Positions 24,573 to 25,804 of a stretch of DNA of 34,894 bases are shown piece by piece. Source of the stretch: an uncultured Parvularculaceae bacterium (GTDB taxonomy: Bacteria; Pseudomonadota; Alphaproteobacteria; Caulobacterales; Parvularculaceae); contig CAJXLJ010000029.1 of assembly GCA_913055785.1 (NCBI GenBank), positions 1-34,894 on the forward strand, in the 5' to 3' direction. A model generated the notes under the pieces. That model did no database searches, was not told the origin of the DNA, and saw nothing but the letters and a program-made list of their open reading frames with translations. The translations under genes and the position numbers were made by a program. Position 1 is the stretch's first letter. The number at the start of each line of letters is the position of its first letter.

Positions 24573-25091
24573 TCAGGATTTAACCCTGACCGGCGCGGGC
24601 GCCAAGGCTTTCCGGACCTTCCAGGCGCCGAACGCAGAGAACCCGGTTAACGCCGCGCCGGCGATAAGCCCGCCGACCCATTCGACGTCGTACAGGCCGA
24701 CGCCGGTCAGCGCGAACAGGGAAAGGCCCGCCATCAGAGCTGCGAAACGCAGCGGCGAGGCGAACGGCCGCGCCGCCGCCCTAACCGCCTTGCCGGCGGC
24801 TTTCGCGGTGACGGCCGCGCCCTTCCCGGCGGCGCGCAGAAGCCTGCGGGCGCCGATCAGTTTTACCAGCCCGGCAAGCGCACCGGCGGCGATGGCGATC
24901 AGCGCCCAGCGCGGCGCTTTCGATTGTTGATCCGCGTGGTCGGCGGCGTGAGCAACGGACGGCGCTTCAACGGTCGCCGGATAGGCCGCGGCGTCGAAAT
25001 CAGCCGCGCCCGCCGGCGCAAGCGCAGCGCTGGCGGCCAACAGCGAACTCGCCGCCATCAGCGCAATCTTAGACTTTCGGGCGTTCATCAT
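24573..25091 (-). CDS. Small membrane protein with signal peptide, unknown function
   Basis: A 172-residue product. Residues 1-29 look like a cleaved signal (ALMAASSLLAASAALAPAGA then A-D). A short soluble stretch to about 60, a membrane span at 61-79 (WALIAIAAGALAGLVKLIG), a basic Ala/Lys/Arg-rich amphipathic segment to about 110, and two more spans at about 113-132 and 140-160 follow. It ends in the basic APAPVRVKS. I do not recognise the family. It is 70 bases downstream of the VDSFPD-repeat gene on the same strand, so the two exported products may share a transcript. An ATGATG pair leaves the start uncertain by one codon. Confidence 0.65.
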   Translation of the reverse strand: MMNARKSKIALMAASSLLAASAALAPAGAADFDAAAYPATVEAPSVAHAADHADQQSKAPRWALIAIAAGALAGLVKLIGARRLLRAAGKGAAVTAKAAGKAVRAAARPFASPLRFAALMAGLSLFALTGVGLYDVEWVGGLIAGAALTGFSAFGAWKVRKALAPAPVRVKS

Positions 25092-25161: not shown

Positions 25162-25485
25162 CTAAGGCAAGCCCGGAAAGCTCGTCACCATCTGGATTTT
25201 GATGTCCGGGAAGCTATCCACATACTGGATTTTGACGTCGGGAAAGCTGTCCACGAACTTCCACTCGCCGCAGTCGTCGGGAAAGCTGTCGACCGCCTGC
25301 ACTTTCAGATCCGGAAAGCTGTCGACGATCTGGACCTTGATGTCCGGGAAGCTGTCGACCACCTGCACGTCGCCGTAAAGCGGAAAGCCGTTAAAGGTGC
25401 AGGCGCTCTTGTCGATCCCGCCCGCATGAGCGGCGTTAACCATCAGAGGGCTGAGAAAGGCGGAAATAAGCCAGAATGGTTTCAT
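25162..25485 (-). CDS. Secreted VDSFPD-repeat protein, probable 7(1) septoil-knot domain
   Basis: A 107-residue protein. Residues 1-21 (MKPFWLISAFLSPLMVNAAHA) are a signal peptide, so the mature ~86 residues are periplasmic or secreted. Six hexapeptides, five VDSFPD and a final VTSFPG, start at residues 43, 54, 65, 78, 89 and 100, linked by (I/L/V)K(V/I)Q-type strands; spacing is 11 except 13 where DCGEWK is inserted. Cys29 (SACTFNG) and Cys72 (DCGEW) are the only mature cysteines and could pair. The pattern matches what I recall as the septoil-knot (7-crossing knot) domain family, with no known function. No clear ribosome site precedes the ATG; a TAAAAT hexamer lies 9 bases upstream (25495-25500), hinting at a very short leader. 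Confidence 0.8.
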   Translation of the reverse strand: MKPFWLISAFLSPLMVNAAHAGGIDKSACTFNGFPLYGDVQVVDSFPDIKVQIVDSFPDLKVQAVDSFPDDCGEWKFVDSFPDVKIQYVDSFPDIKIQMVTSFPGLP

Positions 25486-25804
25486 AATCTGGTGATTTTA
25501 GGCCACACACAGCGATTTCGCCAGCGCCGGACGGGACAATTCGTTGACTTCCGCGCGGAAGCCCCCTACGTCCGGAGGCGGTAATGCTGCAGTGCAGCGC
25601 GCGCAACCGGCCTCACCGCCCCACCATAAGACGCAGCGCCTTTACGCACCGCCTGAATGTCATTGCCGCATGATGACGCATCGCTTGTTATCCCCAGATT
25701 TTGGGGCGGCGGAAGAGCGGGGCGTTGAGAACCAATAGCCCGCCATGCGCCAGACCGGCCGTTCAGGAACGAACCGCCGGTCCACAAAACCAGACGGAGC
25801 CTCA
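25486..25804. other. Divergent intergenic region of 319 bases
   Basis: It separates the VDSFPD-repeat gene (minus) from the helicase gene (plus) and must hold both promoters. I see a GCTGC-AGT-GCAGC mini-hairpin near 25583 and a CCCC-N7-GGGG element near 25695, but no gene. An in-frame ATG at 25745 could extend the helicase by 20 residues, but it has no ribosome site. Confidence 0.5.

Follow-up and report, generated by a model that had tools for sequence, protein, structure and literature searches.

The 107-residue protein described here, encoded on the minus strand of the window (the whole analysed stretch of 34,894 nucleotides from an uncultured Parvularculaceae bacterium), is probably an exported, disulfide-stapled member of the Q9PR55/P73136 torus-knot family. 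This assignment is supported by homology in sequence and by a confident match of the fold; in addition, the repeat spacing is invariant, the cysteines are paired and the gene is under purifying selection. A preliminary description of this DNA had reported a signal peptide followed by six nearly identical hexapeptides spaced by 11 residues, with one step of 13. The repeat pattern was confirmed on the minus-strand translation, and the plus strand of 25162-25485 contains no pattern of this kind; the signal peptide was supported by inspection and by a home-made heuristic. The features of the gene are as follows.

25485 to 25162, minus strand: knot-family protein gene, 107 residues, ATG start, stop codon included (ORF translation)
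25423 to 25485, minus strand: Sec-type signal peptide, residues 1-21, MKPFWLISAFLSPLMVNAAHA, cleavage approximate, near A21 (by eye and home-made heuristic)
25165 to 25422, minus strand: mature protein, residues 22-107, six predicted strands, AlphaFold2 pLDDT 95.5 (model)
25399 to 25401, minus strand: Cys29, partner of Cys72 by covariation
25342 to 25359, minus strand: corner 1, VDSFPD, residues 43-48
25309 to 25326, minus strand: corner 2, VDSFPD, residues 54-59
25276 to 25293, minus strand: corner 3, VDSFPD, residues 65-70
25270 to 25272, minus strand: Cys72, in the DDCGEWK stretch past the third corner
25237 to 25254, minus strand: corner 4, VDSFPD, residues 78-83
25204 to 25221, minus strand: corner 5, VDSFPD, residues 89-94
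25171 to 25188, minus strand: corner 6, VTSFPG, residues 100-105
25490 to 25507, minus strand: upstream element TGTGGCCTAAAATCACCA, -10-like, a few bases 5' of the start codon (alignment)

The corner motif V[DT]SFP starts at residues 43, 54, 65, 78, 89 and 100, giving steps of 11, 11, 13, 11 and 11 residues, and the longer step contains DDCGEWK. Five corners are exact VDSFPD hexapeptides and the sixth is VTSFPG. One 5-mer occurs five times in the mature part; among 100,000 shuffles, none contained a 5-mer five times and one contained a 5-mer four times. Positions 29 and 72 are the only cysteines of the protein, and its pI is 4.05. The pN/pS ratio of the gene against 22 relatives, 20 from the genus and two from the family (L094 and L099), ranged from 0.12 to 0.27 with a median of 0.18, and because these values are low, the open reading frame is a real gene under purifying selection. 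Many of the same 22 aligned relatives have a counterpart of the TGTGGCCTAAAATCACCA element, which could serve as promoter for a transcript with almost no leader. The gene immediately downstream, also on the minus strand (24573-25091), encodes a 172-residue protein that has a signal peptide as well as hydrophobic segments; this protein had no match in Pfam or NCBIfam, and few loci have one of its relatives next to the knot gene.

A search of the PDB sequences revealed a single significant match, Q9PR55/UU089.1, with a phmmer E value of 2.4e-11 for the single protein and 1.1e-16 for a 67-row profile. By sequence, the window protein is thus a homologue of a solved 7_1 knot, the record holder among protein knots with its seven crossings, and belongs to the Q9PR55/P73136 family. 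It had been proposed to be a septoil-knot domain. The kinship with a solved seven-crossing protein agrees with this proposal, but no Pfam or NCBIfam entry matched the window protein above its curated cut-off, no entry so named was met, and five crossings are at least as likely as seven. When 67 family members were compared with Pfam, the best E value was 0.002 among the 25 of 31 families listed. PF19647, which we take to be the entry for such a knot, is named DUF6150 in the Pfam copy used and had no match in the window's genome.

According to the parts of Brems et al. 2022 (PMC9278004) consulted, Q9PR55 is a 7_1 knot with its core at residues 27-83, and its 112-residue homologue P73136 is predicted to be a 5_1 knot with its core at 45-94. 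Both are called uncharacterised there, in agreement with the earlier remark that this domain has no known function. Confirmation of the Q9PR55 knot by crystallography is described in passages of PMC13352647 and PMC11223836, and passages of PMC11184937 mention nine-crossing knots as well as untabulated families with more than three predicted knot types among their members. The window protein resembles Q9PR55 (PDB 8iwa, 8iwb, 8iwc, 8jrm and 8w68) in homologous sequence, strand-corner repeats and predicted fold. Unlike the window protein with its pair, Q9PR55 has one cysteine in the stretch 26-85. Q9PR55 is reported to be chemically very stable and to resist ClpAP.

The structure of the window protein was predicted with AlphaFold2 from 67 rows, i.e., the window protein and 66 of 80 loci (the best 80 of 102 relatives). 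The model has a pLDDT of 95.5 and a pTM of 0.82, and consists of six strands with a corner after each. A Foldseek search of the PDB with this model gave nine matches; the four below E 0.001 (E 7e-6 to 1.2e-4, TM 0.55-0.63) were without exception structures of Q9PR55, which places the model in the fold of the knot family. The best match was 8iwa (E 7e-6, probability 1.0, TM 0.58/0.62, rmsd 3.3 Å); with a TM of about 0.6 at this rmsd, the path of the window model is therefore not identical to that of 8iwa. None of the 16 matches in the viral structure library BFVD reached E≤0.001. A second model was calculated from 44 rows for L222, a natural relative on a phage contig that stops after the fifth repeat (pLDDT 93.1). 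It also had four matches below E 0.001 to the same Q9PR55 structures (E 1.9e-6 to 2.1e-4), but these were local, with TM 0.31-0.41 and an rmsd of 10.1 Å. Because the L222 model matches the 8iwa-type structures only locally, the AlphaFold models of this family are firm in local structure and not in the predicted global path.

These models bear on what kind of knot, if any, is formed. A 7_1 knot as in Q9PR55 is possible but doubtful: homology and the fold match speak for it, but in the best alignments Q9PR55 carries two extra residues at the third corner and ends one repeat sooner than the window protein. On these alignments, the Q9PR55 core corresponds to about residues 40-94 of the window protein, with a register that is ambiguous by one repeat. 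P73136, presumably of cyanobacterial origin, points the other way. L202, a 112-residue protein from a cyanobacterial genome, aligns with the window protein without gaps (63% identity over 79 residues), and we infer, from its length only, that it is the counterpart of P73136. If so, the core limits of the published 5_1 homologue (45-94) would fall at residues 40-89 of the window protein. Judged from these alignments, five crossings (5_1) seem at least as likely as seven, and we lean slightly toward 5_1. It is much less probable that the protein is an unknotted beta-roll or solenoid which AlphaFold placed near the knot fold through homology. Repeats of 11 residues resemble those of solenoids, the knot of the window protein is a prediction, and the L222 model disagrees globally with 8iwa. 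Against this, a solved knot is the sole significant PDB match both by sequence and by fold, and the core carries no insertions across the family. As discussed in passages of PMC10672856, AlphaFold ignores topological barriers, and the 5_1 and 7_1 cases are possibly real.

A pattern scan of the genomes of 84,980 species yielded 102 relatives, and the best 80 of these, which were kept, come from about ten phyla, judged by the titles of their records. Among sampled genomes, the knot domain was found in 43 of 100 relatives, in 37 of 62 members of the family to which the window belongs and in 6 of 398 of its phylum. In the groups surrounding other loci, the positive genomes numbered 12 of 188 (L069), 14 of 244 (L031), 12 of 199 (L042), 7 of 288 (L077) and 2 of 297 (L040). 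Positive genomes mostly had one match; G014 and G585 had two, those of G585 in a single ORF, and G1269 had three. G022, a genome of the window's genus, and Marinicaulis flavus have the same knot domain without any difference (L092, L004). Homologues with the repeat pattern thus exist: the full domain set, including phage and plasmid copies, has 235 rows, of which 169 are distinct. In the profile alignment, none of the 169 distinct domains has an insertion and one (L196) has an internal deletion of one residue, as counted among relatives found with gap-free profiles, which may have missed odd ones. The remaining gaps are chain ends, contig ends or ends of local alignments, and the only insertion-bearing relative we saw is Q9PR55. 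In one ORF (L134/L135/L201), two knot domains with DYGED-type corners stand in tandem, and the contig end truncates the first of them; should both fold, they would form a composite knot.

Cysteines 29 and 72 had been suggested to staple the fold, and they do behave as a pair across the 169 domains. Both occur together in 101, Cys29 never occurs alone, and Cys72 occurs alone in five, of which two are truncated (L048 and the first L134 domain), two have their N-terminal cysteine at a shifted position (L057 and L224) and one, L194, is genuine. This pattern points to a probable Cys29-Cys72 disulfide staple, with the caveat that the 169 sequences are not independent and that Fisher values on them are indicative only. 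A second pair at positions equivalent to 34 and 106, which lie before and after the mapped core, respectively, occurs in seven domains (L040, L069, L076 and L130-L133), never one cysteine without the other. In these proteins, a 34/106 disulfide may close the chain around the entire knot core. L040 and L076 contain no cysteines beyond these two, and the other five have a third at position 21 or 22, so that Cys106 could pair with either N-terminal cysteine, as both are located outside the core, or be free if 21/22 and 34 pair. The remaining 56 domains have no cysteine at any of these four positions. In 20 of them, one or two cysteines are present at other sites from residue 21 onward, for the most part at 21-26, within the signal peptide or close to it.

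We classified the export signals with a home-made heuristic corrected by eye rather than with a dedicated predictor, and the window protein has an N-terminal signal peptide of the Sec type. By this classification, Sec-like signals precede 99 of the 101 Cys29-Cys72 domains and all seven of the 34/106 type, i.e., 106 of the 108 paired domains, with L032, L033 and L036 counted by eye and doubtful. The two exceptions, both among the 101, are L016, which has the cysteine pair and no visible signal, and L134, as the second domain of the tandem. The 56 unpaired domains comprise 41 Sec-like, five Tat-like and ten cytosolic-looking ones without a visible signal. The five Tat-like members (L038, L044, L054, L056 and L060) have twin arginines and lack either cysteine pair; three of them have a cysteine at position 23, near or in the signal peptide. 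Because the window protein combines a Sec-type signal with the cysteine pair, its knot most likely forms only once the chain is across the membrane, which supports the earlier idea of knotting after translocation. By the same logic of signal type, the Tat-like members would be exported already folded.

Several homologues are carried by phages or prophages. The window protein matches the virus protein family phrog_6462 (E 5.9e-31, residues 26-107), but its own gene is chromosomal, and no phage-like gene was recognised beside it among the ORFs and families looked at. On a Leptospira weilii plasmid, a homologue with the cysteine pair and, by eye, a signal peptide overlaps the start of the baseplate J gene and is preceded by genes for tail X, a hub (phrog_4930), phrog_5275 and phrog_5564. 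Judged by gene order and size, this arrangement recurs in eight of nine contigs found with the phage-type query; in L207, the genes adjoining the knot gene are kept and those further upstream are not. In Leptospira prophages, the knot gene thus lies inside the baseplate cassette (L204-L214 are among the loci beside or within baseplate genes). A search of IMG/VR with alignment A1 revealed 13 more loci. The knot gene lies on the opposite strand and adjoins the phrog_4930 baseplate hub in L220, L222, L224 and also L229; a minor tail protein is found near L226 and an endolysin near L223. In the bacterial locus L037, the knot gene is flanked by short fragments of the two hub genes, an arrangement that resembles a decayed prophage. 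Most of the copies listed begin with a signal peptide by eye, and L219 and L221 do not. The P0002 query had no match in IMG/VR, and the phage-type query, alignment A1 and the L222 protein did match there. Since an exported protein sits inside a tail cassette, the arrangement suggests cargo for the host envelope and not a part of the virion. A check for co-conserved bacterial neighbours, made with simple ORF calls in 5 kb flanks, found none conserved across phyla, and only within-genus synteny or too-common families.

This phage association could also mean that the protein is a phage-derived exported factor of phage-host interplay, e.g., for superinfection exclusion, which is merely domesticated here. 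The phrog_6462 match, the baseplate-cassette position in Leptospira prophages, the adjoining hubs and the hub fragments of L037 favor such an origin, but we consider the explanation unlikely: the window gene has no recognised phage-like neighbour, tblastn with two queries found no match in 50,697 phage records, a PADLOC search gave no convincing match (best E 0.051), and the gene is widely retained in the family (37 of 62). The likeness of the corners within one protein could likewise have a cause other than structure, namely gene conversion among the repeats. In 39 representatives at 70% identity, the agreement between corners of one protein at the S position was 0.685 versus 0.321, and the maximum of 1000 permutations, which ignore relatedness, was 0.374. 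Some proteins repeat one motif throughout, such as DAFPD (L126), EHFPD (L125), DTFPD (L127), DNFxD (L133), DYGED (L134) and TIAPx (L205), and many other representatives have mixed corners. Over 126 genes, codons of matching residues were identical at 0.48, with 0.41 expected (Wilcoxon p 2.6e-11, with rows that are not independent), reaching 0.86 versus 0.41 in L126 and 0.61 versus 0.47 in the window gene. Because matching codons are somewhat more alike than expected, the repeats have probably been homogenised to some extent at the DNA level. However, the excess is small against a rough expectation (codon usage in the long ORFs of each locus, including spurious ones), L205 with its six TIAP corners (0.36 versus 0.38) and L130 (0.54 versus 0.53) hardly deviate, and the corners of the window gene use mixed codons (GTC/GTG, GAC/GAT, TTC/TTT and CCG/CCC). 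Gene conversion is therefore rather improbable as the explanation of the identical corners and, despite the small codon excess, is not favoured as their sole cause; we favour structural matching as the main one.

Taken as an exported, stapled torus knot, the window protein would cross the inner membrane unfolded via Sec. In the periplasm, its six strands, alternating with six VxSFPD corners, would coil into a torus knot of the (2,n) type, either 5_1 or 7_1, whose core spans approximately residues 40-94, and a Cys29-Cys72 disulfide would staple the N-terminal segment to the region past the third corner. The outcome would be a small, acidic and very stable module of the cell envelope, and the gene may be a former phage cargo, now chromosomal and kept for a role in the envelope. 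We infer an ultra-stable exported module that was probably spread by phages. More tentatively, and with rather less confidence than doubt, we propose a single family of bacterial and phage proteins in which some members tie their torus knot before they cross the membrane and others do so beyond it. Members with a Sec signal, including the window protein, would knot after translocation and then be locked by a disulfide, and Tat-like members would be exported pre-knotted without the cysteine pair. The sub-branch of seven in 169 domains (L040, L069, L076 and L130-L133) would join Cys106 to a cysteine upstream of the core, giving covalently closed torus knots.

The assignment to the knot family is right, and what is new is the exported, cysteine-paired character of its members and their carriage by phages. 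Among the matches listed in the open-access literature, no paper deals with exported, disulfide-paired or phage-borne members, and the terms "knot" and "signal peptide" are both absent, by a word search, from a Leptospira prophage study (PMC8705779). How complex knots arise in proteins inside cells is an open question, and self-knotting after export would be a clean version of it. In this family, small proteins that are exported in nature and probably locked by a disulfide can be compared with Tat-like and cytosolic-looking relatives of the same fold, and some members may be covalently closed knots.
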